Of a stretch of DNA of 64,000 nt, positions 18,228 to 36,787 are shown in pieces. A program made the position numbers and the translations under genes. The notes beneath the pieces are model-generated. The model saw nothing but the letters and a program-made list of their open reading frames with translations. It did no database searches and was not told where the DNA came from. Positions within the stretch are counted from its first letter, which is position 1. Each line of letters opens with the position of its first letter. Source of the DNA: Chitinophagaceae bacterium (GTDB lineage: Bacteria > Bacteroidota > Bacteroidia > Chitinophagales > Chitinophagaceae); NCBI GenBank assembly GCA_019638595.1, contig JAHBTJ010000025.1:1-64000 (forward strand). The letters are read 5' to 3'.

Positions 18228-18306
18228 GAGAGAACTATAAATCCTTACATCATCAAACACTTTAGAGAAACCGCCATACACGTAAGTACATACAGTGGTG
18301 TGAGAG

Positions 18307-18333
18307 GGCGGCAGAGAAACTATCTTTGCCGCC
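18307..18333 (+). terminator. Hairpin before tail copy 1
   Basis: GGCGGCA (18307-18313) pairs with TGCCGCC (18327-18333) around a 13-nt loop, followed by TGCTTTAATTT. It may end the SusCD-EamA transcript. It precedes tail module copy 1 by 14 nt, as unrelated hairpins do at the other two copies. Confidence 0.5.
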
Positions 18334-18347
18334 TGCTTTAATTTCTG

Positions 18348-18512
18348 GTGAACTTGCTGGTACAAAACCCGAACTCTTTGTTGGAAGATTTGAGGCGGTT
18401 AAACCAGCTAAACGATATTCAAAATCCAACCAATACAACTTCTCCGAAAACTGATACATCGGCCAGTCTTCAACCGCTACAGCCTATAATAAAAAGAGTA
18501 AAAATTAGATAA
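18348..18512 (+). repeat. C-terminal tail module, copy 1 of 3
   Basis: This 54-codon open stretch ends in TAA and encodes VNLLVQNPNSLLEDLRRLNQL followed by a Thr/Ser/Pro-rich end (..TTSPKTDTS..) and a basic IIKRVKIR terminus. A stop codon lies two codons upstream, so it is a detached gene tail, not a whole gene. Copy 3 (30077) is very similar and shares about 20 nt beyond the stop; copy 2 (20165) shares only the first half. Differences between copies fall mainly at synonymous positions, so the peptide was once selected. I do not know the parent protein; a recombinase C-terminus is a guess. With copy 2 it brackets the DUF1016 segment. Confidence 0.6.
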
Positions 18513-18592
18513 TGCGGTTTGCTTCTTATAAAATTTTACAAAGGGAAACAGTCAGCCGATAATGATATTGTCACTCTGATGAACATTGAGAG

Positions 18593-18627
18593 AAACTTTG
18601 AGGTTCCAAATTGGAACCTCAAAGTTT
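18593..18627 (+). repeat. Perfect 35-bp palindrome, matching part of the ORF6N gene
   Basis: Two 17-nt arms surround a single central base. Thirty-two nt (18592-18623) are identical to 36032-36063 inside the ORF6N-domain gene, where they encode ETLRFQIGTS. Here no long frame surrounds it, so it is either a scrap of an ORF6N gene or a regulatory palindrome upstream of the DUF1016 gene. The rest of 18513-18809 shows a possible -7 box TATCTTTA at 18782-18789 and nothing else I recognise. Confidence 0.7.
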
Positions 18628-18809
18628 AAGTATATCGAAAGATGTTCCGCAAAGAAAATATTTACATTATGGTGATTCAACGAAGTTTATCGCCGTTATT
18701 TTTGCTTGTGGTAAAATGATTTGTGTAATCTTGTTTTACAGCGATAAGCGAACGCTTTAAGAAAGCCGTTCCCTGTTTTGTTATCTTTACAGCTAAGAAT
18801 AAGTGAGCA

Positions 18810-19940
18810 ATGAATTTTGAAAAATTAGCTTTCCGCATACAGCAGACCAATGAGTTTTTACAGCAAAATGCCGTAAAAGCTGTAAACATGCACATTACGC
18901 TTAGGAATTGGGTAACGGGTTTTTTTATTGTGGAGTTTGAGCAAAACGGAAGTGATAGGGCTGAATATGGAACTAAACTGCTCGAAAACCTGTCTAAGAG
19001 CATCAGCATTAAAGGGCTATCAGCCCCCGAGTTATCCCGTTGCCGCCAGTTTTACCACGCCTACCCGCAAATTTTTGGGTTGATAACCCAAAAATTCAAA
19101 AACCTGCTTCCTGCTGGCTTTTTTGAAGATTTTGCCCTTGAAAATATCCAGTTTCCAATTCTTGGGTCGGCAACCCAAAAATTTCAAAGTAGTTACAAAA
19201 ATGAAAACCTGGAACACGTTTCCAATATTTTTCAGTCTGTTTCTTACACGCACCTTACCGAACTTATAAAAATAGATGACCCTACGAAAAGACATTTTTA
19301 TGAACTGCTGATTTTGAAAACACAGCCTACCGTAAAAGAACTCAAACGGCAGATTTATACGCTTACTTACGAAAGAGTGGGATTGTCTGAAAACCACAAA
19401 GGTTCTTTTGACGAAGTGATGAGAAAAATAAAACCACAACAGACAAATGATTTGGTGAAGTCCCATTATTTTTTTGAGTTTCTTAATATCGGGCAACCTC
19501 ATTTAATTGAAGAAAGCGAATTGGAACAGGCTCTTATTGAACATTTGCAACAATTTATTATTGAACTTGGAAATGGATTTTGTTTTGAAGCGAGGCAAAA
19601 ACGCATATTGGTTGGCGATGAATATTACTTTATTGATTTGGTATTTTATCACCGCATTTTGAAGTGCCACGTTTTGGTAGAGTTGAAAACCGAAACCGCC
19701 AAACACGAACACATCGGGCAACTGAAATCCTATCTCAATTATTACAAGAAAAACATTCAGGAGGGTAATGACAACCCGCCTGTTGGGATATTGCTTGTTA
19801 CCAGTCAAAATAAAACCCTGGTAGAGTATGCCATTGCTGACAGCGATTTGGATATTTTTGTTAGTAAGTACCAACTGCAATTACCAGATAAAGCAAAACT
19901 GGAAGCATTTATAAACAACGAATTGAGGAATAAAAAATAA
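18810..19940 (+). CDS. DUF1016 (YhcG-type) PDDEXK nuclease-domain protein
   Basis: This 376-residue protein has the two-part YhcG architecture: an N-terminal DUF1016_N helical/winged-helix region (about 10-150, LRNWVTGFFIVEFEQNG, YGTKLLENLSKSI, LSRCRQFYHAYPQ) and a C-terminal PDDEXK nuclease fold. The catalytic residues fit D276 (YFIDLVFYH) and E291-x-K293 (LVELKTE), followed by GQLKSYLNYY. Family members are found beside restriction systems and on mobile elements; their biological role is not settled. It is alone between tail modules 1 and 2, with ORF6N-like scraps on both sides, so it was probably brought in as a single-gene cargo. No methylase partner is present. Confidence 0.9.
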   Translation: MNFEKLAFRIQQTNEFLQQNAVKAVNMHITLRNWVTGFFIVEFEQNGSDRAEYGTKLLENLSKSISIKGLSAPELSRCRQFYHAYPQIFGLITQKFKNLLPAGFFEDFALENIQFPILGSATQKFQSSYKNENLEHVSNIFQSVSYTHLTELIKIDDPTKRHFYELLILKTQPTVKELKRQIYTLTYERVGLSENHKGSFDEVMRKIKPQQTNDLVKSHYFFEFLNIGQPHLIEESELEQALIEHLQQFIIELGNGFCFEARQKRILVGDEYYFIDLVFYHRILKCHVLVELKTETAKHEHIGQLKSYLNYYKKNIQEGNDNPPVGILLVTSQNKTLVEYAIADSDLDIFVSKYQLQLPDKAKLEAFINNELRNKK

Positions 19941-19996
19941 ACATAAAGCGGCATTTGAAAAACTGAAAGAGGTTTTGATGTTATTAGATATTTAAT

Positions 19997-20040
19997 TTCC
20001 TGAACGAAATTTAGCGTGAGGGGTAGAAGTGGCATCCTTT
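19997..20040 (+). pseudogene. Fragment of ORF6N gene end plus 5' half of a structured RNA
   Basis: This stretch matches 36701-36744 with about five mismatches. In frame it ends FLNEI-stop, as the ORF6N gene ends FLNGI-stop, and then continues into the first half (GCGTGAGGG-TAGAAG-GGCATCCTTT) of the structured element that follows the ORF6N gene. The second half of that element is missing. It lies 56 nt after the DUF1016 stop codon. Confidence 0.6.
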
Positions 20041-20123
20041 GGGTACTCGAACTCATTAATGCTTCTGTATTAGTTGATTATCATTTTCTGGCTTTGTTGG
20101 TATCAATTGATCGAACACAAAAA

Positions 20124-20152
20124 AGCCTTCAAAATCAATGAATTTGAAGGCT
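20124..20152 (+). terminator. Terminator-like hairpin before tail copy 2
   Basis: AGCCTTCAAA (20124-20133) pairs with TTTGAAGGCT (20143-20152), with A-rich sequence before it and TCTGAATTTT after it. It may act in both directions, ending the DUF1016 transcript. Tail copy 2 starts 12 nt later. Confidence 0.6.
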
Positions 20153-20164
20153 TCTGAATTTTCT

Positions 20165-20320
20165 GTGAACCCACTGGTACAAAACTCGAACTCTTTATTG
20201 GAAGATTTAAGGCGATTGAACCAATTGAAAGACACCTCTTATAAGTATGATCTAGATAAAAATAAAGTTAGCTCCGCTAAACCGAAAATTATCTTAAACA
20301 CGGAAAAACGGAAATTGTAA
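20165..20320 (+). repeat. C-terminal tail module, copy 2 of 3
   Basis: It encodes VNPLVQNSNSLLEDLRRLNQL then KDTSYK and a diverged lysine-rich end, finishing with TAA at 20318-20320. The first 24 codons align with copies 1 and 3 mainly by synonymous changes; the remainder and the 3' flank do not. It separates the DUF1016 segment from the leftward carotenoid operon, whose last gene ends 50 bp further on. Parent protein unknown. Confidence 0.6.
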
Positions 20321-20369
20321 AAAATGTCAATAAAGAAAGCTATACTAAAGTCTTCAACCAGCTTTATTA

Positions 20370-21272
20370 CTACATAAAAAATGTCTTCTCAATCGAGCTA
20401 TACTCAAATTTAAAGCCGGTTTGTTTTATTTTGTAATTGCTGACCCTAGAACCCTTTAACAACATCACGGACATTTCCCCCAAAAATAACCTTACCAGAA
20501 ATGCTGGTACATTGGGCAAAAAACTCGTTTTTCCGAATGACCTTAGCAGGGCTTTAGAAAAATCATTCATCATAATGTGCTCGGAAGAAACAGCATTAAA
20601 AACCCCGCTGAGTTCATCTGTCTTCAAGATGAATTCATACAACCGGACTAAATCCCGGATGTCAATCCAGGGTAAGTATTGCCTGCCATTTCCTAAAGAT
20701 GTATTGATGCCCAACTTCGCCAAAGGTGCTAATTTTTGATACATACCACCATCTCTCCCAAGGACAACGCCTTTTCTTAAAATCACGGTAGCAACACCCA
20801 AACTGTCAAATTGCAGTGCTGTTTTTTCCCATTTCCGGCAAACCGAAGCCAAAAATTCGCTGCCGTTATTGGATTTCTCTGTAAATATTTCATCCGTAGT
20901 AATCGCACCATAATAACCTATGGCGGAAGATGAAATGAAGATATCTATGCTAAAATTCCTTGTTTTAACATAGGTAAAAAGTAAATCTATTGCCTTGGTC
21001 CGGCTTTCGATTATTTCAACTTTCCTTTTTTCCGTCCAACGCTTTTCGGTAATGTTTGCGCCTGTTAGATTGATGATTTTCGAAACGCCCTCAAATGCTT
21101 TTTCGTCAATAAATCCTTTCTTTATATCCCATTCAAAATACCGAATGTTCTCCATGCTGCTGATTTTGTTCCTCCGTGTTAACACATTGACCATATAACC
21201 ACAATTTACTAGGTGCTTTATCAATGCTTTTCCGACAAAACCTGTACCTCCGGCGATTAATATCTTTTTCAT
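20370..21272 (-). CDS. TIGR01777-family NAD(P)-dependent epimerase/oxidoreductase (SDR39U1/YfcH type)
   Basis: This 300-residue extended short-chain dehydrogenase has the N-terminal nucleotide-binding motif GGTGFVGKALIKHL (about 8-21), the NLTGANI stretch of the TIGR01777 group, and the tail block with LLKGSRVSNYKI. The biochemical role of this family is not established. It overlaps the isopentenyl-diphosphate isomerase gene by 4 bp and is the last gene of the carotenoid-photolyase operon. Relatives often sit beside photolyase, SRPBCC and lipocalin genes in bacteria, as here, so a link with light or oxidative stress is likely but unproven. Confidence 0.85.
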   Translation of the reverse strand: MKKILIAGGTGFVGKALIKHLVNCGYMVNVLTRRNKISSMENIRYFEWDIKKGFIDEKAFEGVSKIINLTGANITEKRWTEKRKVEIIESRTKAIDLLFTYVKTRNFSIDIFISSSAIGYYGAITTDEIFTEKSNNGSEFLASVCRKWEKTALQFDSLGVATVILRKGVVLGRDGGMYQKLAPLAKLGINTSLGNGRQYLPWIDIRDLVRLYEFILKTDELSGVFNAVSSEHIMMNDFSKALLRSFGKTSFLPNVPAFLVRLFLGEMSVMLLKGSRVSNYKIKQTGFKFEYSSIEKTFFM

Positions 21273-21787
21273 GAATTGATTTTTGAAAGCAGCTCCGGAA
21301 AGGCCTGTCTGAACCAGACCGTATAATGTGATGGATTATTTTTTATATCAGATAGAATTTCATCCGCATTCATCCACTTATAGTCCTGTACTTCATCTTT
21401 GTTTAAAACAGGACATTGTTCAGAATAACCAACAAAAACATAATCCAGCTCATGCTCTGTCAAATTGTTTTCAACCCGCTCATTGTATATAAATGAATAG
21501 ACCAATCTTAAATCACATTTCAGTCCCATTTCATAGATTAACCGCTCTTCTGCACTTAAAGCAACAGTTTCTCCCCATTGCGGATGCGAACAACAGGTGT
21601 TCGTCCATAACCCTGCTCCGTGGTACTTGTGGCTTGCCCGCTGCTGCAAAAGAAGCTCTCCCTTATCATTAAATATAAATACCGAAAATGCCCGGTGGAG
21701 ACGCCCTTGCTCGTGGGCCATCAATTTTTCCATTTCAGCAATGGCATTATCGTTTTCATCGACCAACACTACATTGTTTCTCTCCAT
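21269..21787 (-). CDS. idi: Isopentenyl-diphosphate delta-isomerase, type 1
   Basis: This 172-residue Nudix-fold enzyme interconverts isopentenyl and dimethylallyl diphosphate, feeding carotenoid synthesis. It shows the type-1 signatures: FSVFIFNDKGELLLQQRA (about 34-51), the active-site Cys region TNTCCSHPQWGE (about 62-73) and the metal-binding glutamates in EERLIYEMG (about 79-87). Length is normal. It sits between the photolyase (18-bp gap) and the TIGR01777 gene (4-bp overlap). Bacteroidota that carry crt clusters often include idi to raise precursor supply; no GGPP synthase (crtE) is present, so that step must come from elsewhere in the genome. Confidence 0.93.
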   Translation of the reverse strand: MERNNVVLVDENDNAIAEMEKLMAHEQGRLHRAFSVFIFNDKGELLLQQRASHKYHGAGLWTNTCCSHPQWGETVALSAEERLIYEMGLKCDLRLVYSFIYNERVENNLTEHELDYVFVGYSEQCPVLNKDEVQDYKWMNADEILSDIKNNPSHYTVWFRQAFPELLSKINS

Positions 21788-21805
21788 TTTACTTTAATTA
21801 AAGCG

Positions 21806-23113
21806 TTATTGATTGTTTTCCTTGACGGCTTCTCCATATACTTTCAACGCTCTGTCTCTTGCGAAACTGTGTTCTACTATTTGTTGGGGGTAAGCATCTG
21901 TTCCAAATCCGGGAATCCATTTTTTGATATATTCCAACTTCTTATCAAACTTATCGGTTTGAACAGTTGGGTTAAACACCCTGAAATACGGTGCAGCATC
22001 ACAACCCGAACCCGATGCCCATTGCCAGTTTCCATTGTTGGCCGATAAATCGTAATCGTTCAGCTTTTGTGCAAAGTAGGCTTCACCCCAACGCCAATCT
22101 ATCAGTAAATGTTTGCACAAAAAACTCGCTGCAATCATCCGTACCCGATTGTGCATAGATCCTGTTTGGTTCAATTGTCGCATTCCTGCATCGACAATCG
22201 GATAACCTGTTTTTCCCTCGCACCACTTTTCAAATTCCCATTCATTGTTTCGCCATTTGATGTTATCGTATTTCGATTTAAAAGATTGATTAACCACTTT
22301 AGGGAAATGATATAAGATCTGCATAAAAAACTCTCGCCAGATCAATTCATTCAGCCACGTTTGATTGTGGTTCCATGCAAAAGCTACACATTTACGAATA
22401 CTAATGGTGCCAAATCGAAGAGCGATGCTCAATTCTGTTGTCCGTTGCATTGCAGGATAATCCCTGAATTTGTCGTATTCGTCAATGATTTTTGCATCTA
22501 ATTTCGGCGGATCAAAAGTGATATCTGTTTTTTCAAAACCGAATTCATTCAACGAATGAATTTCGGCAAACCGCTGTCTGAAAAAATTAGTGCAATCAGG
22601 ATTATACGACTTGTAATCTTTTTCTGTCAATAGCTCTTTCCATTTTTTTGAATACGGGGTATAAACCGTATAGGGTGTGCCGTCATTTTTCAATACATCG
22701 TTTTTATCAAAAATGACCTGGTCTTTGAATGCCTTAAAAGGAATGTTCTGTTCGTTGAAAAACTGGTAAATCTCCGTATCCCGTTTAATGGCTTGCGGTT
22801 CATAATCCCGATTGCAGAAAACGCCTTGAACAGCATATTTTTCGGAAAGCATTTTAAAAACATCCAAAGGATTTCCATAAAATGTATTCAATCTTGCGTT
22901 GAATGTCTTCAATCGGCTATTTATTGCCGAGAGTACCTGATGGATATAGTCAACCCTTCGGTCTTTTTTATCTTCTAATTTATTTAGGATGGTCTCATCA
23001 AAAATAAAAACCGGCAACACGGGTAATTCGGAAGCAAGTGCCTGATACAAACCCACATTGTCTTCCAAACGCAGATCTCTGCGAAACCAAAAAACGGAGA
23101 CCCTACTTTTCAT
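21806..23113 (-). CDS. phr: Deoxyribodipyrimidine photolyase (class I cryptochrome/photolyase family)
   Basis: This 435-residue protein has an N-terminal antenna-binding alpha/beta domain (VSVFWFRRDLRLEDNVGLYQAL) and a C-terminal FAD domain with the class I signatures WCEGKTGYPIVDAGMRQLNQTG, NRVRMIAASFLCKHL and the block from DYDLSANNGNWQW onward. It repairs UV-induced pyrimidine dimers with blue light. The start overlaps the end of the lipocalin gene by 11 bp, so it is co-transcribed in the MarR-headed operon. Pairing photolyase with a carotenoid operon gives a combined light-protection unit. Confidence 0.93.
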   Translation of the reverse strand: MKSRVSVFWFRRDLRLEDNVGLYQALASELPVLPVFIFDETILNKLEDKKDRRVDYIHQVLSAINSRLKTFNARLNTFYGNPLDVFKMLSEKYAVQGVFCNRDYEPQAIKRDTEIYQFFNEQNIPFKAFKDQVIFDKNDVLKNDGTPYTVYTPYSKKWKELLTEKDYKSYNPDCTNFFRQRFAEIHSLNEFGFEKTDITFDPPKLDAKIIDEYDKFRDYPAMQRTTELSIALRFGTISIRKCVAFAWNHNQTWLNELIWREFFMQILYHFPKVVNQSFKSKYDNIKWRNNEWEFEKWCEGKTGYPIVDAGMRQLNQTGSMHNRVRMIAASFLCKHLLIDWRWGEAYFAQKLNDYDLSANNGNWQWASGSGCDAAPYFRVFNPTVQTDKFDKKLEYIKKWIPGFGTDAYPQQIVEHSFARDRALKVYGEAVKENNQ

Positions 23114-23669
23114 TCAAAAATGGATTATCGTTCCTGTCGTGCTTTACCCAGATCAGTTTAGAGGTATCATAACCAATCCCTTCTGCAATTCCCAAATAGT
23201 TTGCTTTAACCTCTTGGGGAACGTTCTTTGTTCTCGATAAAATCCATAAATACTTTAGGTTTTTTCCCGCAACCAGCGCATACTGGTAATTTTCGTCCAA
23301 TGCGACCACATTGTAACCAGAATAAAAAGGACCGAAAAAACTTACTTTCAATTTTGCAACATTTTTATCTCCTCTGAACCTTGCTAAACCGTCCGCTTTT
23401 TTCCATTCTTGCTTATTATGGTTATAGCCACTGTTCAAGACGATGACATTGCCATTTTCATTCAGGCTGTATTGAGCGGAAACATTGTCCAAGTCCCTTT
23501 CAAAACGAGAATCAAAACGGGCAATTTCGTACCAAGTGCCTAAATATTCATCGACATCAAAGTTTTCCACTGCTTTTGCCTTTTTGGGGATCGAGGCACA
23601 GGAATTTAAAAGAGCAATTAACGCTATGGAAAAGGCCACTGTTAAAATTTTATTTTTTGCTTTCATCAT
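23103..23669 (-). CDS. Lipocalin family lipoprotein (Blc-like)
   Basis: This 188-residue protein has a lipoprotein leader (ALIALLNSCASIPKK, Cys about 24) and the bacterial lipocalin signature DEYLGTWYEIARFDSRFERDL (about 41-61, with the GTWYE core), then strands ending in LWILSRTKNVPQEVKANYL. Blc-type lipocalins bind lipids or other hydrophobic molecules in the outer membrane. In a carotenoid operon it might handle carotenoid or damaged lipid; this is inference. It overlaps the lycopene cyclase gene by 20 bp and the photolyase by 11 bp. Confidence 0.9.
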   Translation of the reverse strand: MMKAKNKILTVAFSIALIALLNSCASIPKKAKAVENFDVDEYLGTWYEIARFDSRFERDLDNVSAQYSLNENGNVIVLNSGYNHNKQEWKKADGLARFRGDKNVAKLKVSFFGPFYSGYNVVALDENYQYALVAGKNLKYLWILSRTKNVPQEVKANYLGIAEGIGYDTSKLIWVKHDRNDNPFLNEK

Positions 23670-24351
23670 CTATATGTTTAAACCGTTTAAAAAAATAAAG
23701 CACCAAAAGAAACTGCGTATATCCATAAACGGCATCCTCAATTGGTATCGTTAGTATCCGTATACCCAGAAAATCTCCCGGGTTGTAATTTACGATAGGT
23801 GTTTCGATACCAGTCCCCGTCAGCACGCCATTTACAGGAAAAAAACCTAACATCAATATAGTAAACACCAAAGATGCCTTGCCAATCCAATCTACCTGTG
23901 CAATGAAATTCAGGTAAATTAAAGTTGCTATAGTGGCGATAGCCGTCATAAGTGTATAGATTTTATCATAATGCAACAAAGCCATAACCGAACAGATAAT
24001 GACGCTGACAAAAACGATCAGGTTATTTAAGGCGGATAGCCATCCTAACTTGAAAAACTTATCAAAACAGAAATAGGTAAACACGCATGAAAACGGAATG
24101 AAAATAAAGAAAAGCCATTCTTCAAGAGGCAAACCCGCTATCACTATTCCCAGTGTATAATCTGTATTGAACCACCAAACACCTTTTGCGGTAAACCATA
24201 TATCCCAAGAAATAAATGGTATAGCAACCAAAATCGCAGATTTTATAAACGATCCAAAATAACGGTTAAAGAGAATCCGGCTGTCAAAAGATGCGATAAA
24301 GCAAATGATGACCGTAAAAAATAATATCATTGAATAAGTATATGCCATCAT
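23650..24351 (-). CDS. Lycopene cyclase, CrtYcd-type integral membrane protein
   Basis: This 233-residue membrane protein with about six to seven hydrophobic segments carries two lycopene-cyclase domains in tandem; the PLEEWLFFIFIPFSCVFTYFC segment (about 74-95) and IPIEDAVYGYTQFLLVLYFF (about 202-221) hold the paired-acidic EE and ED motifs of the two halves. In Gram-positive actinobacteria these halves are separate genes (crtYc, crtYd); the fused form is common in Bacteroidota. It should turn lycopene into beta-carotene in the inner membrane. It overlaps the hydroxylase gene by 4 bp. Confidence 0.88.
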   Translation of the reverse strand: MMAYTYSMILFFTVIICFIASFDSRILFNRYFGSFIKSAILVAIPFISWDIWFTAKGVWWFNTDYTLGIVIAGLPLEEWLFFIFIPFSCVFTYFCFDKFFKLGWLSALNNLIVFVSVIICSVMALLHYDKIYTLMTAIATIATLIYLNFIAQVDWIGKASLVFTILMLGFFPVNGVLTGTGIETPIVNYNPGDFLGIRILTIPIEDAVYGYTQFLLVLYFFKRFKHIDDESKK

Positions 24352-24806
24352 TTTTTCGCGGAATTAAAATACATTTTGAAATATTTGAAAGGCACATATA
24401 AAAACCCGAAACATTCACCGTTTTCTTTTCCGATATGTTTGTGATGTTGTTTGTGTGCCCTGCGCAGTGCCAAAAAATAGGCACTTTGGGTCTGGGACAG
24501 AAATTTGATCCGTTGGTGGATAAAAATATCGTGCACAAAAAAATAAGCCATTCCGTAAAGCATAATGCCCAATCCGATATAAAACAGATAGTTGAAATTT
24601 TCAAGCGAACCGAAATACATCAAAGCAATCGTGGGTATAGCAAATATGACAAAAAAATAGTCGTTCTTTTCAAGAACGCCCTCATTGCTGTGGTCATGAT
24701 GGTCTTTGTGCAAAACCCAAAGAAAACCGTGCATAACATATTTATGGATAATCCAGGTTGCCCCTTCCATCAATGTAAACGTGAGCAATACGATTAAAAA
24801 AGCCAT
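24348..24806 (-). CDS. crtZ: Beta-carotene hydroxylase (CrtZ type)
   Basis: This 152-residue membrane protein of the fatty-acid hydroxylase family has the four histidine clusters of CrtZ: HKYVMHG (about 20-26), HKDHHDH (33-39), HDIFIHQR (89-96) and HKQHHKH (112-118), which bind two irons. It hydroxylates the beta-rings of beta-carotene, giving zeaxanthin through cryptoxanthin. It lies 1 bp from the SRPBCC gene and overlaps the cyclase. No crtW ketolase is present, so zeaxanthin is the predicted end product of the cluster. Confidence 0.9.
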   Translation of the reverse strand: MAFLIVLLTFTLMEGATWIIHKYVMHGFLWVLHKDHHDHSNEGVLEKNDYFFVIFAIPTIALMYFGSLENFNYLFYIGLGIMLYGMAYFFVHDIFIHQRIKFLSQTQSAYFLALRRAHKQHHKHIGKENGECFGFLYVPFKYFKMYFNSAKK

Positions 24807-24807
24807 A

Positions 24808-25275
24808 TCAGTTTTTTATTGGGTTAAAAAGTTTCTCTAAAACGTGGTATCGGAAATCAAAGATGTACGCCAATTTCTTTTTCACAAAAAGTAGATGTGC
24901 CATCTTCCCCAAAAAGCCGAAAGGCAATTCATAATCTACCGTATCTTTCATCAGCACTCCGTCTTTATTGGGGATAAATTCGTGAAAATGGCTCCAGTAT
25001 TTATAAGGTCCTTTCTCCTGAAAATCAGTAAAGCTTTTATTTGATTCCACATGAGTAATTCTCGTTCTCCACTTCAACGGAACTTTCAGCAACGGCGAAA
25101 CGATATAATCGATCACCATTCCTTCAGCAATCTGTTCGCTGTTATAATCCGACAGCACCGTAAAACCCATATCTTTGGGTGTGATCTTCGAAAGGTTCTT
25201 AGGAGAAGAGAAAAAATCCCACGCTGCTTCGATATCGCAATTCAATTGTTGCTCCCTGTATAACCGATGTTTCAT
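24808..25275 (-). CDS. SRPBCC-family (START-like) ligand-binding protein
   Basis: This 155-residue SRPBCC-fold protein begins HRLYREQQLNCDIEAAWDFFSSPKNLSKITP and has the KVPLKWRTRITHVE and DTVDYELPFG blocks typical of the group. The fold makes a deep hydrophobic cavity; function in this subgroup is not defined, and relatives are sometimes loosely annotated as cell-division inhibitors. In the operon it sits between a small exported protein (3-bp gap) and crtZ (1-bp gap). A role in handling carotenoid or another lipid is a reasonable guess, no more. Confidence 0.8.
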   Translation of the reverse strand: MKHRLYREQQLNCDIEAAWDFFSSPKNLSKITPKDMGFTVLSDYNSEQIAEGMVIDYIVSPLLKVPLKWRTRITHVESNKSFTDFQEKGPYKYWSHFHEFIPNKDGVLMKDTVDYELPFGFLGKMAHLLFVKKKLAYIFDFRYHVLEKLFNPIKN

Positions 25276-25278
25276 AGT

Positions 25279-25737
25279 CTAGTCCTTTAAAAGCGTTCCT
25301 ATATTTTTCTGCAAAATCTCCGACCTGATTTGGTGTCGGTTTTCCTTAATAAATTTGGCATCCCCATTTATGTTTGATTTATATCCTAAAAAAGACGGAG
25401 CATTTTTTTGAACCGAAAGTCGGATAAACCTTAATTCCACATTTTCAGGTTCTTTTTTGATTGCCTGCTCGATGTTTTTCTTCCCTTCTTTAAACGTATT
25501 GAGTTTACTTATCGGACTAAAGACGTGATTTGCCCAGATAGTTTGTAAACCAACCAAATAAGCCATATGTGTAGCTGAATTGTTCTTTGTTTCTGTCAAT
25601 TCCGCAATTATCTTTCCACACAACTCTTTTTCTGATACCAGTTTGTTGTAGTTAGCCCTTACTACATCCAAACCTGTTGCATTAAAACTCATAAGAAAGA
25701 GTATGGCCGATATTAGTAAGCCAGGAATTTTGATCAT
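25279..25737 (-). CDS. Small exported protein of the carotenoid operon, function unknown
   Basis: This 152-residue protein has a signal peptide (MIKIPGLLISAILFLMSFNATG) and a helical body with a TPR-like stretch (HVFSPISKLNTFKEGKKN, IEQAIKKEPENVELRFIRL), suggesting a periplasmic helical-repeat protein. I recognise no catalytic motif. It overlaps crtB by 4 bp and precedes the SRPBCC gene by 3 bp, so it is clearly a member of the operon. The tight coupling suggests a supporting role near the membrane where carotenoids are made or placed, but no function should be assigned. Confidence 0.75.
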   Translation of the reverse strand: MIKIPGLLISAILFLMSFNATGLDVVRANYNKLVSEKELCGKIIAELTETKNNSATHMAYLVGLQTIWANHVFSPISKLNTFKEGKKNIEQAIKKEPENVELRFIRLSVQKNAPSFLGYKSNINGDAKFIKENRHQIRSEILQKNIGTLLKD

Positions 25738-26570
25738 AAAAACGCAGTTTTATATCTTACATAACTTTTGAACGCCACAAATGCCTTTTCAGAATTAGGA
25801 ACCCGAATCCTGTTATTCAATATCTCTTTGGAGGATATTCTTTTTATTTTTTGCAACAAAAACAAATAGTACTTGTAAGCTAAATACACCCCAAACATTG
25901 CGGAATTGGGTAGCTTCTTAATCCCGATTAAAGCCTCCTTAAATTCTTCCTCTATTTCCTTTTCAATCTGACTTTTCACACTATTATCAAATATGCACAT
26001 ATCAATATTCGGGAAATAAGTCCTGCCCAAAATCTGATAATCATCTTTCAAATCCCTTAAAAAGTTTACTTTTTGAAAAGCTGACCCCAGTTTCATTGCA
26101 TATGGTTTCAATTCTCTATATTTTTCCATATTCCCATCCGTAAAAACTTGTAGACACATCAGCCCGACTACTTCGGCTGAACCAAAAATATATTCTTCGT
26201 ATCGTTCTGAATTGTAATCTATTTTCTGCAAATCCATTTCCATACTATGTAAAAACTGTTCAATGAGACTTTTGTCAATTTTATACTGATTTACTGTTTC
26301 CTGGAACGATTGTAGAATAGGGTTGAGCGAAATTCCTTCCTGCAACGCATCGTCGGTTTCTACTTTTAATCGATTCAATAGTTTCTCTTTATCGTACCCG
26401 TGAAAACTGTCCACGATTTCATCAGCCAGTCTCACATATCCATATATGGCATAGATAGCGGGACGTATAGACGGTTTCAGCGCTAAAATTCCTAGAGAAA
26501 AACTCGTACTATACTTTTGGGTTGTAATCTTGCTTACCGAGCACGATAGTTCGTCAAAGATCTTTTTCAT
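25734..26570 (-). CDS. crtB: Phytoene synthase
   Basis: This 278-residue squalene/phytoene synthase condenses two geranylgeranyl diphosphates to phytoene. The two Asp-rich motifs are present as YVRLADEIVDSFH (about 45-57) and FLRDLKDDYQILGRTYFP (about 169-186), and YSTSFSLGILAL near the N-terminus is typical. Length fits the family. It overlaps crtI by 4 bp and the small exported protein gene by 4 bp. GGPP must be supplied by a host synthase because no crtE lies in this operon. Confidence 0.93.
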   Translation of the reverse strand: MKKIFDELSCSVSKITTQKYSTSFSLGILALKPSIRPAIYAIYGYVRLADEIVDSFHGYDKEKLLNRLKVETDDALQEGISLNPILQSFQETVNQYKIDKSLIEQFLHSMEMDLQKIDYNSERYEEYIFGSAEVVGLMCLQVFTDGNMEKYRELKPYAMKLGSAFQKVNFLRDLKDDYQILGRTYFPNIDMCIFDNSVKSQIEKEIEEEFKEALIGIKKLPNSAMFGVYLAYKYYLFLLQKIKRISSKEILNNRIRVPNSEKAFVAFKSYVRYKTAFL

Positions 26571-28048
26571 AGTCCTTCTTGTTTAAGTTTGATTATTTCA
26601 TTTGCTACAATTTTACCAGATAGGATGGACGGAGGAACTCCGGGGCCGGGAACGGTCAATTGACCCGTGTAGAATAAATTTTTCAATCTTTTATTTATTA
26701 TTTTAGGTTTCAAAACTGCAGTTTGACCAAGTGTGTTTGCCAGTCCGTACGCATTGCCACCGTACGCATTGTAATCTGAAATAAAATCGCTGACACAGAA
26801 GCTTCTTTTGTACTCAATCATTGACTGTAAATCGGCTATGCCCGTATGTCTTTCAATTCTTGAAAGCATTTCCATTAAATACTTTTCCCGTGTTAATTCT
26901 TCATCGTTTATTCCGATTGCCAAAGGCATCAACAAAAACAGGTTTTCTTTGTCTTTAGGGGCAACGGCATTATCTGTTTTTGATGGGCAACAAACATAAA
27001 AAAGAGGCTTTTCCGGCCATTTCTTCTCGCCATAGATACAATCAATGTGTTCGTCTAAGTCATTTTCAAAGAAGAGTGTATGATGTTTTAGGTTGGGAAT
27101 AATTTGATTGATGCCTAAATAATAGATCAAACTTGATGGTGCAAACGTTCTGCTTTTCCAGTACACCTCAGAATAATTTCTGAGGTCTTTATTTAAAAGC
27201 GTTTCTGTATGATGATAATCGGAAGAAGCAATTACAATATCGAATTCATAGGTCTCGCCATTGATAGTTAAAGATCTTACCTTACCATTTTGTGTATTTA
27301 TGCTTTCAACGGTTTTGTTAAAATAAAAAGTTGCACCTTGGTTTTCGGCTACTTTTTTCATCGCCAATACCAATTGATAGAAGCCACCTATAGGATAATG
27401 CGTTCCTAAGGCATAACCCCCATAGTTCATCAAACTATACAATGCAGGAATATTTTTTGGCGAAGCACCCAGAAAAATCACAGGAAACTCCATCAATGTT
27501 CTTAATTTTTCACTTTTGAAGTATTTAGCAACATAGGTTCTGAAGTTCGTCAGTAAATCCAATCTCAATGCACTTTTAGTTATTTTAGGAGAAATGAATT
27601 CTGACCAATTATGGCAAGGCTTATTCACGAAATCCTGCATACCGACTTCATATTTGAATTTAGCCGATCGCATAAATTTTTCTAATTGTAATCCTGCACC
27701 CTTTTCGATTTGTTCGAACAAGATTTTTAATTCCTCTAAACTTTCAGGTACACTGATTTTCTCTTGTGAAAAAATCATTTCAAACTGTGGGTTTAATGAA
27801 ATCAACTCGAAGAAATCAGAGATTTTGTAGCCGAAATCAGCAAAAAAACTTTCAATAATATCAGGCATCCAGTACCAACTTGGTCCCATATCAAATACGT
27901 AACCTTGTTGGGTAGAAAATTGCCTTGCTCTTCCACCTGGCTGCTCGTGTTTTTCAAATACGTGAACCTCATTTCCCGCTTTTGCCAAATAAGCTGTAGC
28001 AGACAATCCCGAAAAACCGGAACCGATAACGGCTATTTTTTTCTTCAT
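26567..28048 (-). CDS. crtI: Phytoene desaturase (CrtI type)
   Basis: This 493-residue FAD enzyme performs the desaturations from phytoene to lycopene. The N-terminal dinucleotide site IAVIGSGFSGLSATAYLAKAG (about 5-25) is followed by HVFEKHEQPGGRA, and the C-terminal bacterial phytoene desaturase signature is NLFYTGQLTVPGPGVPPSILSG (about 461-482). Length is normal. Its ATG overlaps the stop of the MarR gene by 4 bp, which places the biosynthetic genes directly under the regulator's promoter. Confidence 0.95.
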   Translation of the reverse strand: MKKKIAVIGSGFSGLSATAYLAKAGNEVHVFEKHEQPGGRARQFSTQQGYVFDMGPSWYWMPDIIESFFADFGYKISDFFELISLNPQFEMIFSQEKISVPESLEELKILFEQIEKGAGLQLEKFMRSAKFKYEVGMQDFVNKPCHNWSEFISPKITKSALRLDLLTNFRTYVAKYFKSEKLRTLMEFPVIFLGASPKNIPALYSLMNYGGYALGTHYPIGGFYQLVLAMKKVAENQGATFYFNKTVESINTQNGKVRSLTINGETYEFDIVIASSDYHHTETLLNKDLRNYSEVYWKSRTFAPSSLIYYLGINQIIPNLKHHTLFFENDLDEHIDCIYGEKKWPEKPLFYVCCPSKTDNAVAPKDKENLFLLMPLAIGINDEELTREKYLMEMLSRIERHTGIADLQSMIEYKRSFCVSDFISDYNAYGGNAYGLANTLGQTAVLKPKIINKRLKNLFYTGQLTVPGPGVPPSILSGKIVANEIIKLKQEGL

Positions 28049-28707
28049 CGCCTTTTATCTTTTAAAACTTCATTCAATAAATATTCTGGTTCAATATTTT
28101 TATCGTAGATCTGTTGATGAAAATCATTGAGTTTATTGAGCAACCTGATCAATTCCATTTTTTCGTTATGGGTTAAATCTCCTGTAACGATTTCAGTTGC
28201 TTTTCTGATTTTGTCCATTTGCTTTTCTAAAACCTGAATTCCCTTATTGCTTATTTTTAAAACTTTACTTCTTTTGTCGGTCTCAGAATCGGTTTGATTT
28301 ACCCAACCTTGTGCAATCAACCGGTTGATAACTTGCATTCCGGCAGGTTTTTCATGTACATTCTTTTTTATCAAGTCCATTTTGGTCATTTCTCCAAAAG
28401 CTTTTAGGTTAATGAGGTAGATAAGATCTTCCTGTGTTGAAAAATCCGATCCGAATATGGCGGACTTGGAATAACTCTTGGCATATCTGTTCATATGGAC
28501 AATTAAAGTATTAATGACACTTTCTGCACTACGTCCCTTTTCTTTTCCATCCCAATTAGGTTCATTATTTTTTTCTTCACCTTTATAATTGGCAACTATC
28601 CATCTTTTAAAACCTTCGATATCATTAGGGTATGTTCTTCCTTGAAGAATATCTTCTTCAAATTCCTCAAGCAGATTGACAACATTTTTTAAAATATCAT
28701 ATTTCAT
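28045..28707 (-). CDS. MarR-family regulator heading the carotenoid operon
   Basis: This 220-residue protein is longer than typical MarR proteins (about 150). The winged helix is in the C-terminal half (about 95-190: FGEMTKMDLIKKNVHEKPAGMQVINRLIAQGWV, then TDKRSKVLKISNKGIQVL), preceded by about 85 residues of helical extension. It is the first gene of the leftward operon and overlaps crtI by 4 bp. An exact -7 box and an inverted repeat sit just upstream, so it probably represses itself and the whole carotenoid-photolyase operon. Its effector, perhaps a redox or light-dependent signal, cannot be read from sequence. Confidence 0.88.
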   Translation of the reverse strand: MKYDILKNVVNLLEEFEEDILQGRTYPNDIEGFKRWIVANYKGEEKNNEPNWDGKEKGRSAESVINTLIVHMNRYAKSYSKSAIFGSDFSTQEDLIYLINLKAFGEMTKMDLIKKNVHEKPAGMQVINRLIAQGWVNQTDSETDKRSKVLKISNKGIQVLEKQMDKIRKATEIVTGDLTHNEKMELIRLLNKLNDFHQQIYDKNIEPEYLLNEVLKDKRR

Positions 28708-28724
28708 ATAATTATATTAGTTCA

Positions 28725-28766
28725 CAAATATACTATATTCAACTTATTAAATGTATAAACTTATAC
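28725..28766 (-). promoter_or_regulatory. Promoter and probable MarR operator of the carotenoid operon
   Basis: On the minus strand TATATTTG (28732-28725) matches the -7 consensus TAnnTTTG exactly, 17 nt before the marR ATG. The inverted repeat GTATAA-AC-TTATAC (28753-28766) lies about 20 nt further upstream, where the -33 element should be, so a bound MarR dimer would block the promoter. Binding is inferred from position and symmetry. Confidence 0.55.
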
Positions 28767-28878
28767 TAAATTCTTTGCGGGTTTATTTTTAGCAATACAA
28801 GACTCTTGGTAAGGTCGGTAGTATATATATTATAAGGATGTATTTAGGATCATGCTGATAATTTGGGGGATTAATATT

Positions 28879-29396
28879 TTATGCATAAATATTTGCTAGC
28901 CTAAACAGGAAGAAGTTTATATCTCTGACACCTCTTGCAGTAGCTCTGAAGGCCTTTATTTTTGCGTTAAAAGATTCAGCAGAAGCATTGGTACTTCTGT
29001 TGTTAAAGAAGTTTAGTATGTCCAAGTAGTGATTCTGTATAGATTTAGCTACTGTTTTAAAAGAGTCTATTTTAGCCGCCTCTACATCATTGTACCATAA
29101 TGCGAGTTTTTTAAACGCTTGTTGTTTGCTGGTTGAAATCCGGTAAACTTCACCCAGCCTGTTTGCTAAAGAGTAAGCCTGTTGTAATTTAGGATAGCGG
29201 GTAAACAATAAATCAGCTCTTTGTTTTTGCTCCATGGACCGATGTTTTGTTCGAAAAGCATCCATTGTTCGGCATGTGCCTTTTGGTTCCATTGCCTGTA
29301 ATCGCTTATATGTTCTTTGTATTGTTGTTGAAGCAGTTTGCCATCGACTTGAAAGTAATGACCAAGCTGATGGCTGCTGATAGCGTAATTATCCAA
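28879..29396 (-). pseudogene. ISAon1-family transposase, DDE core deleted and frame changed
   Basis: The N-terminal piece (from 29396) reads MDNYAISSHQLGHYFQVDG ... LFEQNIGPW in one frame. At about 29240 the text jumps to the C-terminal part in another frame (EQKQRADLLFTRYPKL ... NFFNNRSTNASAESFNAKIKAF ... FFLFRLANIYA-stop). A complete protein is about 320 residues; only about 175 remain, and the segment with the catalytic Asp residues is gone. The DNA joint is a clean internal deletion. It cannot encode an active transposase. Confidence 0.85.
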
Positions 29397-29742
29397 ATAC
29401 TTCTTTTAAAAAAGCCGCAAATTCTGCGGTCATACGGGTTCCGGACTGAACTAAAGACCAGTCCCGGCTTATAATCTCACCAGTTAACTGATTCTCCCAG
29501 CGACGTCGCTTAATACAGAGGTATACTTTTTTACCACGAATGGGAAAATCCTGAACACGGATCTCAGGATAGAAACCCTTGGAATGATAGATGAGCGATT
29601 TAAACTCCTGAGGTATACTATTATTCTCTTCCAGGTAAATGTTCAGTCCTATATCACTATCCTCAACACGGATAATATCAAAATAATCTAAAATGCCAAC
29701 AGGCAACAATGCAGATATAAGTTCTTTTTGTACTTCAGCCAA
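29389..29742 (-). CDS. ISAon1-family transposase N-terminal region protein
   Basis: This 117-residue protein is the small upstream gene of ISAon1-type elements. It contains a compact domain (LLPVGILDYFDIIRVED, SKGFYPEIRVQDFPIRGKKVYLCIKRRRWE) and an end (SGTRMTAEFAAFLKEVFG) that normally leads into the main transposase. It overlaps the next frame by 8 bp. The gene is intact although its partner is broken, so it could still be made; whether it acts alone, for example by binding element ends, is unknown. Confidence 0.7.
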   Translation of the reverse strand: MAEVQKELISALLPVGILDYFDIIRVEDSDIGLNIYLEENNSIPQEFKSLIYHSKGFYPEIRVQDFPIRGKKVYLCIKRRRWENQLTGEIISRDWSLVQSGTRMTAEFAAFLKEVFG

Positions 29743-30024
29743 TCTATTTGTCTTTAAAGCACAAAAATCTAAACTCCAACAAAATCCCCCAAATTTTTAA
29801 CTTGATCCTGTATTTAGTGGATGAAACGGCAATAATGTATCATTCAATTTATTACCGAAAATTAGCTAATAATAAATATTGGAGGTGAATCTTATAGAAA
29901 GAAAAGAAATAAAAGCTTACCCAAAAACCATATGGACTGTTTAACAAATCAGGTAGAAATAAAACAATGGTTGGTTGTTGACAAAAGCGACTGGGTAACC
30001 ACAAGTGAAGATACTCATACCAAA

Positions 30025-30072
30025 AAAAGCCAAAAGGTACCCTTTGGATTCAAATGGCGCCTTTTGGCTTTT
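30025..30072 (+). terminator. Terminator-like hairpin before tail copy 3
   Basis: AAAAGCCAAAAGG (30025-30037) pairs with CCTTTTGGCTTTT (30060-30072), a 13-bp stem followed by T-rich sequence. Tail copy 3 begins 4 nt after the stem. The preceding 29817-30024 holds no gene I recognise. Confidence 0.65.
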
Positions 30073-30076
30073 GTTT

Positions 30077-30238
30077 GTGAACTTATTGGTACAAAACTCG
30101 AACTCGTTATTAGAAGATTTGCGGCGGTTAAACCAGCTAAAAGATACTGCAAATCAAACAGATACAACTTCTCCGAAAATTGATAAACCTACCAGTCCTC
30201 AACCTCTGCGACCTATAAAAAGAGCAAAATTAAGATAA
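30077..30238 (+). repeat. C-terminal tail module, copy 3 of 3
   Basis: It encodes VNLLVQNSNSLLEDLRRLNQL, KDTANQTDTTSPKIDKPTS and a basic IKRAKLR end before TAA at 30236-30238. It matches copy 1 (18348) along its full length and for about 20 nt past the stop (TGCGG-TTGCT). The frame is open upstream through the hairpin, but no recombinase or other domain is seen there. It marks the end of the carotenoid/IS segment and the start of the conjugative-element genes. Confidence 0.6.
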
Positions 30239-35847: not shown

Positions 35848-36718
35848 CACTATTATAATCCGCAAAGAAATAGAAAACTTTATCTATACAGTAAGGGGCA
35901 AACAGGTCATGCTCGATAATGACCTGGCTGCATTGTACCAGGTAGAAACAAAAATACTGAACAAAGCCGTAAAGCGGAATATGGAGCGGTTTCCCGATAC
36001 ATTCTGTTTCCAGTTGACCGATGAGGAAAGCGAAACTTTGAGGTTCCAAATTGGAACCTCAAACGCCGGACGGGGTGGACGGCGTTATTTAGCCTACGCA
36101 TTTACGGAACAAGGCGTGGCTATGCTATCAGCCATATTGCGCAGCGATACAGCCGTAAAAGTGAGCATTGAGATTATGAACGCATTTGTAGAGATGCGCA
36201 AGATATTAATGAGTAACGCTGTACTGTTTTCAAGGTTGGATAAAATCGAACTCAAACAGTTAGAAGCGGACGGCAAATTTGAGGAAATATTTAAGGCACT
36301 GGAAAGCGGTAAGCTGCATAGCGAAAAAGGTATTTTTTACGATGGGCAGATATTTGATGCCTATGCCTTTGTTTCCGATATTATGCGAAGCGCCGGGCGG
36401 TCAATCATCCTTATTGATAATTACGTGGACGATACGGTACTAACCCTGCTCGGCAAGCGTGGGCAGTCCGTATCTGCCACTATCTACACCAAAAGCATCA
36501 GCAGCCAGCTACAACTGGATGTGCAACGCTACAACAGCCAGTACCCGCCTATTGACGTTCACACATTTGCCTATGCCCATGACCGTTTTCTCATTATTGA
36601 CGGCACGGAGCTTTACCACATCGGGGCATCATTGAAAGATTTAGGCAAGAAATGGTTTGCCTTTTCTAAGATAAATTCAGAGGTCGGTAAAATGCTTAGT
36701 TTCCTGAATGGCATTTAG
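35837..36718 (+). CDS. ORF6N-domain DNA-binding protein
   Basis: From the ATG at 35837 this is a 293-residue protein; an in-frame ATG at 35804 would extend the overlap with topB from 11 to 44 bp, so I prefer the later start. It has an N-terminal ORF6N domain (KQVMLDNDLAALYQVETKILNKAVKRNMERFP ... RRYLAYAFTEQGVAML), a phage-type DNA-binding module, followed by a C-terminal region (from about 150, GIFYDGQIFDAYAFVSDIMRSAGRSIILIDNYVDDTVL). That C-terminal part resembles a phospholipase-D-like nuclease fold without an obvious HKD motif. Such proteins are widespread on conjugative elements; function is unknown. Scraps of a relative flank the DUF1016 gene at 18.6 and 20.0 kb. Confidence 0.85.
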   Translation: MNDNTIIIRKEIENFIYTVRGKQVMLDNDLAALYQVETKILNKAVKRNMERFPDTFCFQLTDEESETLRFQIGTSNAGRGGRRYLAYAFTEQGVAMLSAILRSDTAVKVSIEIMNAFVEMRKILMSNAVLFSRLDKIELKQLEADGKFEEIFKALESGKLHSEKGIFYDGQIFDAYAFVSDIMRSAGRSIILIDNYVDDTVLTLLGKRGQSVSATIYTKSISSQLQLDVQRYNSQYPPIDVHTFAYAHDRFLIIDGTELYHIGASLKDLGKKWFAFSKINSEVGKMLSFLNGI

Positions 36719-36787
36719 CGTGAGGGATAGAAGCGGCATCCTTTTGTTAGGAACGAACAAAAGATATAGCGGATAGCCCGACAGCGT
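36718..36787 (+). ncRNA. Structured RNA element, Flavo-1-like, after the ORF6N gene
   Basis: The stretch starts at the ORF6N stop codon. It can fold into an outer GGG/CCC pairing (GAGGGATAG with GGATAGCCC) and an inner 8-bp hairpin CTTTTGTT / AACAAAAG, with the near-symmetric internal loop strands AAGCGGCATC and ATATAGCGGAT. The AGCGG-CATCCTTTT ... AAAAGAT-AGCGGATAG pattern recurs in intergenic regions of Bacteroidota and, as I recall, corresponds to the Flavo-1 motif; that name is from memory. Function unknown. A truncated second copy lies at 20007-20040. Confidence 0.5.

Follow-up and report, generated by a model that had tools for sequence, protein, structure and literature searches.

Tandem serine-recombinase elements at tRNA-Lys in a Chitinophagaceae genome, with an integrase C-terminus predicted to be exchanged by insertion

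Large serine integrases of phages and of integrative and conjugative elements (ICEs), such as those of the A118/LI, phiC31 and Bxb1 type, carry Resolvase, Recombinase and zinc-ribbon domains in this order and recombine unlike attP and attB sites that share a short core, with the zinc-ribbon motif displaced outward by 5 bp in attP relative to attB (PMC3783163; the papers cited here by number are drawn on through excerpts). Here we analyse a 64,000-nt stretch of a Chitinophagaceae genome (assembly GCA_019638595.1, contig JAHBTJ010000025.1, positions 1 to 64,000; hereafter the window), in which three copies of a short coding tail trace back to a large serine recombinase (LSR) of the same domain order. 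This LSR differs from the described integrases in that it targets tRNA 3' ends, in a predicted attP inside its own gene that would lead to replacement of its C-terminus on integration, and in a terminator-like tRNA hairpin embedded in its codons. Insertion of serine recombinases in tRNA genes is called rare (PMC3218068), and mycobacteriophage serine integrases, as far as the excerpts of PMC9262239 go, do not use tRNA genes. Eight related serine recombinases of Mycobacterium actinomycete ICEs (AICEs) insert at one tRNA-Leu gene (PMC3218068); this likeness is drawn by description only, and those elements belong to Actinobacteria and use a single tRNA. The filamentous phages phiRSM also employ a serine recombinase at a tRNA 3' end (tRNA-Ser) in reverse orientation, but their enzyme is small and resolvase-like, and attP lies between ORF14 and ORF15, outside the recombinase gene (PMC3816273). 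In the integration-dependent immunity of mycobacteriophages, attP is located in a coding gene and insertion at a tRNA changes the C-terminus of the protein (PMC9262239); there the gene encodes a repressor and the integrase is of the tyrosine type, whereas here the predicted attP lies in the gene of a serine recombinase, which would itself be altered.

Closer in host range, the Chryseobacterium and Elizabethkingia elements ICECspPOL2 and ICECleSHZ29 likewise insert at tRNA 3' ends in related bacteria, but excerpts of their descriptions report flanking perfect direct repeats of 17-18 bp, unlike the sites described below. The LSR studied here matches the NCBIfam CcrB and CcrC families far below cut-off (CcrB 114.5 bits, against a cut-off of 900), and its target is tRNA-Lys. 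Staphylococcal cassette chromosome (SCC) elements with Ccr recombinases resemble the present array in combining a serine recombinase, one site at a 3' gene end, tandem composite arrays and recombinase-less cassettes; they differ in their site, rlmH in staphylococci rather than tRNA-Lys in Bacteroidota, and we know of no exchanged recombinase tail in them. In the SSV-type archaeal integrases, attP lies inside int and integration partitions int at a tRNA gene; these enzymes are of the tyrosine type and the gene is broken in two, whereas here the body would stay intact and only a short C-terminal tail would be exchanged. A survey confined to the open-licence literature gave no report of an LSR with attP in its own gene at tRNAs.

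Tails, recombinase gene and tRNA-Lys

The tails very probably represent the attL sites of elements moved by a tRNA-targeting LSR, each of them doubling as the cut-off C-terminal codons of that LSR. It is well supported that the window holds three such elements in tandem, namely a YhcG cassette (18348-20164), a carotenoid cassette (20165-30076) and an ICE (30077 to C18:90024), all stacked on tRNA-Lys(CTT) at C18:90025-90098. The tails marking their left ends are as follows.

18348-18512, + strand: tail copy 1, putative attL and left end of the YhcG/DUF1016 cassette (P' half-site and LSR C-terminal codons)
20165-20320, + strand: tail copy 2, left end of the carotenoid/photolyase cassette, with the same left end after different flanks in five other genomes
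30077-30238, + strand: tail copy 3, left end of the ICE, encoding the predicted circular-form C-terminus of the ICE's own LSR

The tail sequence begins VNLLVQNSNSLLEDLRRL. A 41-nt degenerate pattern built from the three copies matches these three only in the 64 kb and gave no match in 100 dinucleotide shuffles. Over 24 codons, synonymous and non-synonymous codon differences number 7 and 4 between copies 1 and 2, 6 and 3 between copies 1 and 3, and 11 and 1 between copies 2 and 3, and the similarity of copies 1 and 3 at the 3' end runs about 20 nt past the stop. Each copy follows a hairpin of unrelated sequence, with gaps of 10, 9 and 4 nt from hairpin to first codon; a DUF1016 gene and then carotenoid genes plus an insertion sequence (IS) lie between the tails, and a conjugative element follows copy 3. 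On all these points an initial annotation, made from the letters of the window, is borne out. Its view of hairpin and tail as a shared terminator-plus-tail module has to be given up: the tail is what recurs as the left end of an element, while the hairpin belongs to the left neighbour and differs each time.

The window's own genome (G000) contains a further clear copy at C5:183193 and a weaker one at C5:128562. The tail is present in 10 of 294 family genomes, the own genome counted (E<=0.01), and occurs at 22 loci of the GTDB contig collection, including Sphingobacterium, Chryseobacterium, Chitinophaga and Paenimyroides. Alignment of the flanks reveals a sharp left boundary at GTGAAC, to the left of which the sequence is unrelated between loci and often forms a hairpin. 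As the tails stand before unrelated cargo, an origin as a piece of a DMT- or DUF1016-linked gene was ruled out.

The parent gene, which the initial annotation had left to be sought, is an LSR gene at the right end of the ICE (C18:88474-90060, outside the window). An origin in a gene unrelated to mobility had been named as the finding that would overturn the earlier proposal; since the parent is the integrase gene itself, this falls away. A tyrosine recombinase, the first guess for the parent, was ruled out, the right end being an LSR with the domains PF00239 (Resolvase, 2.1e-21), PF07508 (Recombinase, 3.7e-11) and PF13408 (zinc ribbon, 3e-5; 24.8 bits, just under the cut-off of 25.3). Its reading frame enters the antisense strand of tRNA-Lys(CTT) (ARAGORN call; Rfam tRNA, 70 bits) and stops there, the body end ...SLSFLDLSQE being followed by VTPQRLELWTR (...DKKNGTSLSFLDLSQE, then VTPQRLELWTR); by eye, a mutS-like gene comes after the tRNA. 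When the two ends of the ICE are joined in silico, the LSR is unbroken and runs ...LSQE, then VNLLVQNSNSLLEDLRRLNQLKD..., giving 570 aa versus 528 aa as integrated. One natural whole LSR, in G004 (L108/L165), continues in frame into the tail (...FADLSCQ, then VAPRVENSNLLLEDLLDL...); it is 44% identical to the ICE LSR and keeps LLEDL with partly different codons. In G295, G279 and G313, as judged by eye, the tail follows in the same frame on a short stretch resembling the LSR end, and a decayed example is found in G294.

These fusions bear on the alternative that the tail is an independent small gene with a GTG start (antitoxin- or Xis-like) carried by each cassette. Most tails do begin with GTG, and many run for 20-60 codons. 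The tails nevertheless stand directly behind hairpins or unrelated flanks with no common upstream sequence, their C-terminal half is weakly conserved, and in G004 the same codons extend a whole LSR frame, leaving a small gene highly unlikely.

An LSR of another family (L019/L068 in G294 C18; 39% identity), located next to Wadjet genes, is followed by the same tail type, which suggests that two LSR families share the tRNA-Lys site. In two genera, a second LSR paralogue (about 52%) without a tRNA-ended C-terminus lies beside the tRNA-ended LSR (L124, G000 C5:37087-38559; L125, G029 C8:121334-122800); it could act as a partner enzyme or be an older copy left behind.

Attachment-site geometry and the hairpin in the recombinase gene

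A search with the LSR body covered 395 class genomes, 61 of which gave matches at E<=1e-60, and with at most three candidates scored per genome produced 85 rows. Taking 71 of these with the ends L092 and L074 makes 73; L162 has no row and one of two L124 matches has the same C-terminus as L095, leaving 71 distinct ends. An antisense tRNA lies at or inside the 3' end in 47 of the 71, representing ten amino acids (Arg 11, Met 9, Lys 8, Glu 6, Leu 4, Val 3, Pro 2, Asn 2, Ala 1, Phe 1), and 61 carry in the same frame the motif V...[GRE][FLIV][EK][PLH], which corresponds to the antisense T arm. The arrangement is thus common across the class. The tree of the 47 LSRs requires at least 28 changes of target amino acid, and frame and spacing are constant in 46 of the 47.

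The two ends of the elements carry the motif TCGAA at different distances from the first core base. It occupies nt 17-21 in 55 of the 61 tRNA-type LSR ends (60 with at most one mismatch) and nt 22-26 in none; conversely, it occupies nt 22-26 in 40 of 45 distinct tails (44 with at most one mismatch) and nt 17-21 in none. The tail set derives from 64 profile matches (score >=12), of which 46 distinct ones passed a score of 16 and a length filter and 45 lie at least 3 nt apart. Some contigs occur under two handles, as judged by length and matching places (G703/G294, G284/G303, G060/G306, G206/G307), and the tail set contains no duplicates. The same shift, with common first core bases, is seen by eye for tRNA-Arg(CCT) in G004 (GTAGCCCC) and for tRNA-Pro in G468 (GTCG). 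The sites are thus unlike each other in the manner of serine-integrase attP and attB, with the motif 5 bp further out in the presumed attP; from this shift TCGAA is probably the zinc-ribbon motif, and because the shift matches the published rule (PMC3783163), the first 27 nt of the tail are taken as the P' half-site.

Downstream of this half-site the constraint changes in kind. Across the 45 tails, codons 1-9 have entropies of 0.63/0.60/0.62 at codon positions 1/2/3, with no codon periodicity, whereas in codons 10-18 (0.85/0.52/1.22) the variation is mostly at third positions; for codons 10-19, pN/pS is 0.33 in the LSR frame versus 0.51-1.56 in the other five frames. The tail therefore resembles a recombination site that passes into a protein C-terminus, a result that is suggestive rather than decisive since the tails were gathered with a protein profile. 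The same data speak to the alternative that the tail is conserved as DNA only, as an extended P' arm to which the recombinase or an accessory protein binds, with an incidental frame and an inconsequential C-terminal swap. Codons 1-9, which lack periodicity and carry TCGAAC, do appear to be constrained as DNA, and the protein-profile collection favours protein-like tails. Third-position variation and the low pN/pS in the following codons, the whole LSR fused in frame to the tail in G004 and the retention of LLEDL through partly different codons in L108 all run counter to it, and we regard this alternative as unlikely, though it keeps some weight.

A strong antisense hairpin is found in the 66 nt before the core in 59 of 60 scorable LSR ends (z<-2 against dinucleotide shuffles, median -4.5; one of the 60, L115, is scorable via a chance motif match), compared with 3 of 55 in the adjoining upstream segment. 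At the median the stem is 14 bp long and lies 3 nt from the core; a T run of at least 4 is present in 57 of 60, and by eye the stem sequences vary between LSRs while the pairing is kept. We infer that this hairpin, which lies inside the LSR codons, serves as the replacement terminator of the tRNA; on that reading, the hairpins before the tails would be chromosomal tRNA terminators or the right ends of neighbouring elements. The three in the window are the following.

18303-18337, no strand assigned: hairpin left of the array, on the chromosomal side of the putative attL; -20.4 kcal/mol, z -3.0, antisense strand without T run
20121-20155, - strand: right-end hairpin of cassette 1; z -3.4, terminator-like on the - strand
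30025-30072, - strand: right-end hairpin of cassette 2; -25.0 kcal/mol, z -4.3, strong and terminator-like on the - strand

The hairpin of cassette 1 would have been the terminator for the tRNA that it would once have abutted; a similar one adjoins tRNA-Lys next to mutS in G703 (L200). That of cassette 2 directly abuts tRNA-Lys in G297 and G298. The hairpin beside copy 1 has no Rfam family match; a 47-nt piece next to it has another copy in G701, where neither a tRNA nor a tail is close by, and its suspected nature as a group II intron remnant was dropped, Rfam giving no match at the G701 place.

The window's array of cassettes, each boundary of which bears a hairpin, could also recall integrons, with folded single-stranded hairpin sites and a tyrosine recombinase. 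Here the recombinase at the element end is of the serine type, the boundary hairpins are unrelated in sequence and the junction is a tRNA 3' end; no linked tyrosine recombinase with attC-like sites was noticed in this contig's lists of open reading frames (ORFs), which were read by eye and not with a profile search. The chance that an integron-like process is at work is practically negligible.

Cassettes, arrays and cargo

The carotenoid unit is mobile, and its two boundaries can be read in relatives. The segment recurs with a common left end in Sphingobacterium SGG-5 (G297, 98%), Paenimyroides (G298, 94%), S. mizutaii (G299, 89%) and Sphingobacterium N143 (G300, 99.8%). In G297 and G298 its right limit coincides with the first base of copy 3 in the window (inside the common GTGA), and an intact antisense tRNA-Lys (GTGATCCCGCTGGGATTCGAACCC...) directly adjoins it there, so that copy 3 lies outside the carotenoid unit and starts the next element. 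In G300 the match stops earlier and is followed by an LSR (87%), which the cassette lacks in G297 and G298. In G294, 19.8 kb reaching from the carotenoid cassette into the ICE match the window at 99.985% identity, but in a different context. The empty site is seen in relatives: the joined flanks of G297 form a hairpin directly followed by tRNA-Lys, and one match spans this junction in 16 of 19 other-genome Sphingobacterium loci among the matches listed. A unit bounded by a tail and an intact antisense tRNA-Lys lends support to the earlier suggestion of repeated insertion at one site, as in an attachment-site array.

Spread of the copies by homologous recombination or segmental duplication, without site-specific insertion, would fit the likeness of copies 1 and 3 beyond the stop. 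It is at odds with a left boundary that coincides with the crossover core where both species and flanks are unrelated, with the right boundary at tRNA-Lys in G297 and G298, and with the uninterrupted hairpin-tRNA sites, and retains only a very slight probability. Site-specific insertion also agrees with the wider sample: a tRNA follows downstream of the tail in 10 of the 17 tail-bearing stretches that were mapped, and in all 10 the first is an antisense tRNA-Lys. The shortest of these tail-to-tRNA units measures about 0.9 kb (G295), and the longest, which has an LSR of its own, 43.7 kb (G296). An LSR stands at the right end of the unit in G000, G296 and G300 and a remnant in G295 and in one of two units in G308, while the units of G294, G297, G298 and G301 and the other one in G308 are LSR-less. 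Tail-flanked cargo includes AbiE and Wadjet JetABCD (G294), AbiE (G303) and YhcG (window); in G298, type I restriction methyltransferase and specificity genes come after a tail, where the mapping covers the left end only. tRNA-Lys adjoins mutS in 2 of 18 loci examined in a mutS search (28 genomes with a mutS match). In G004, a 5.6-kb stretch from a tail to tRNA-Arg(CCT) (L254, from C1:3594628) has no LSR match; its tail type, VAPRVENSN, is that of L108, the sole LSR listed for this genome, and the stretch is a candidate for movement in trans.

The content of the three elements in and beyond the window is listed here.

18810-19940, + strand: cassette 1 cargo, a YhcG/DUF1016 PDDEXK nuclease (Pfam YhcG_C 6e-52, DUF1016_N 5e-21; PADLOC candidate defence family PDC-S02)
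20370-28707, - strand: cassette 2 cargo, carotenoid-type genes, a photolyase-like gene and isopentenyl-diphosphate (IPP) isomerase (NCBIfam on seven ORFs)
28848-29808, no strand assigned: ISL3-family IS with a degraded transposase (DDE_Tnp_ISL3 7e-30)
30077-64000 in the window, ending at C18:90024, no strand assigned: ICE, with the LSR, TraG, TraJ, TraM and DUF4138 beyond the window
30401, 32272, 33754, 58408 and 61304: ICE genes in the window, in this order RteC, a DUF4099/DUF3945 protein, topoisomerase III, a type IV secretion system (T4SS) coupling protein and a relaxase

In cassette 2, NCBIfam matches are above cut-off for TIGR01777, IPP isomerase, the lycopene-cyclase domain and CrtID, and below it for photolyase and a phytoene-synthase-like protein; lipocalin-like and MarR-like ORFs were recognized by eye, and the ORF at 24351-24806 has no NCBIfam match. 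The ISL3-family IS is flanked by a 9-bp target duplication (TGTATTTAG at 28839-28847 and 29809-29817) and is missing from the carotenoid cassette in G297, G298 and G300. In the ICE, the transfer module is CTnDOT-like (RteC 2e-70, CtnDOT_TraJ 2e-17, Transposon_TraM 6e-45, P-loop_TraG 4e-215, Relaxase 5e-29, T4SS-DNA_transf 5e-15) and the integration module is not of the CTnDOT type, the right end holding a serine recombinase that runs into tRNA-Lys in place of an IntDOT-type tyrosine integrase.

The ICE further carries, at 38226-58289, an AcrB-family efflux pump (Pfam) and a methyltransferase (44763); recognized by eye in this region are a P-type ATPase, a phosphatase-like gene and another RND pump (52431-56753), to which an outer-membrane factor is fused. 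A Flavo-1 RNA match (RF01705; 57 bits, cut-off 42) lies inside it at 36713-36787 of the window, + strand. A 1064-aa single-chain SIR2-pAgo protein is encoded at C18:69891-73085 (L087:5891-9085, - strand; PADLOC pAgo E=0, Aga_SIR2-PNTD1-PNTD2 6e-201), near a DUF2326 protein (PDC-M68B) and ORFs without family match; this region is likely a defence island inside the ICE. A group II intron (Rfam RF01999, RF00029) with a reverse-transcriptase-like ORF (L088:1686-2921, by eye) is located at C18:85119-87005 (L088:1119-3005), close to the LSR end of the ICE.

Proposed mechanism and its meaning

In the proposed mechanism, the LSR gene of the circular element would be uninterrupted through attP, comprising in order the last body codons (with the terminator-like hairpin on the opposite strand), the core, the P' half-site and the tail codons, which read V..LVQNSNSLLEDLRRL...stop; for the Lys clade the predicted crossover core is GTGA. 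The LSR would recombine attP with the 3' end of an antisense-lying tRNA gene. After insertion the right end would consist of LSR body, core and intact tRNA, so that the LSR would read into the antisense tRNA strand and end in VTPQRLELWTR, and the hairpin within the LSR gene would be able to act as the tRNA terminator. The tail would be left behind at the far (left) end, next to the displaced chromosomal flank. New elements would insert beside older ones, and LSR-less cassettes that keep both ends would presumably be moved by an LSR in trans, which together would place one tail at each left boundary. That the C-terminus of the LSR is exchanged by insertion follows from the sequence and is not yet observed.

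Several results weigh against this mechanism or its generality. Some tails are decayed (L014, L070, L071). A plasmid search with the tail gave no match, a viral-contig search gave 35 pattern matches with none confirmed, and LSR searches in plasmids and phages gave no match; five LSRs in viral contigs have tRNA-like or decayed ends, none with a tail. Around the LSR-tail fusion in G004, no tRNA or further tail was found in 40 kb to one side and 20 kb to the other. In G295 the remaining part of the LSR remnant preceding the tail is frame-shifted, the corresponding stretches in G279 and G313 are short and were assessed visually, and the other-family LSR of L019/L068 ends before its hairpin. Ten of the 71 LSR ends are without the T-arm motif, L115 among the 61 has it by chance, and L101, one of the 47, stops 2 nt short of its tRNA. 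The hairpin before copy 1 is not a clear terminator, its antisense T run being missing, unlike in the other two. The right end of the carotenoid cassette in G299 was not located, and the empty site expected by the initial annotation, a DMT gene joined to one tail, was not found for the window's own locus: among 11 other genus genomes, the DMT region gave weak or short partial matches in 3 and none in 8. In G412 the first tRNA after a tail is tRNA-Met with a different core, from which tail and tRNA are judged not to be partners. Neither a circular form nor read evidence was seen, and the crossover point, terminator use, insertion order and movement in trans stay at the level of prediction.

Regulation of the LSR by the C-terminal exchange is a testable possibility. 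Tentatively, and with somewhat more doubt than confidence, we suggest an integration-state switch, in which the circular element would encode an LSR with the LLEDLRRL tail (570 aa) and the integrated element one that takes its C-terminus from the host tRNA sequence (528 aa). The tail might be needed for, or bias the enzyme to, attP x attB integration, and its loss on insertion might alter activity, stability or directionality; the attachment site itself would then report integration status to the integrase. Because the two predicted enzyme forms differ only in the C-terminal tail, sensing of the integrated state by an integrase becomes testable.

LSRs with a readable attP/attB rule at tRNAs could serve as tools. 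The rule itself combines an antisense tRNA 3' end and V...GFEP at the LSR C-terminus with an NSN.LLEDL tail at the opposite end. It marks off a class of mobile elements and defence cassettes in Bacteroidota, among them LSR-less ones that finders relying on an integrase would overlook. The findings point to a broad LSR family specialised on tRNA genes. If the switch is true, this would be a self-modifying integrase family with a tRNA target changed at least 28 times, in which one short stretch of the gene also gives the host tRNA its replacement terminator.

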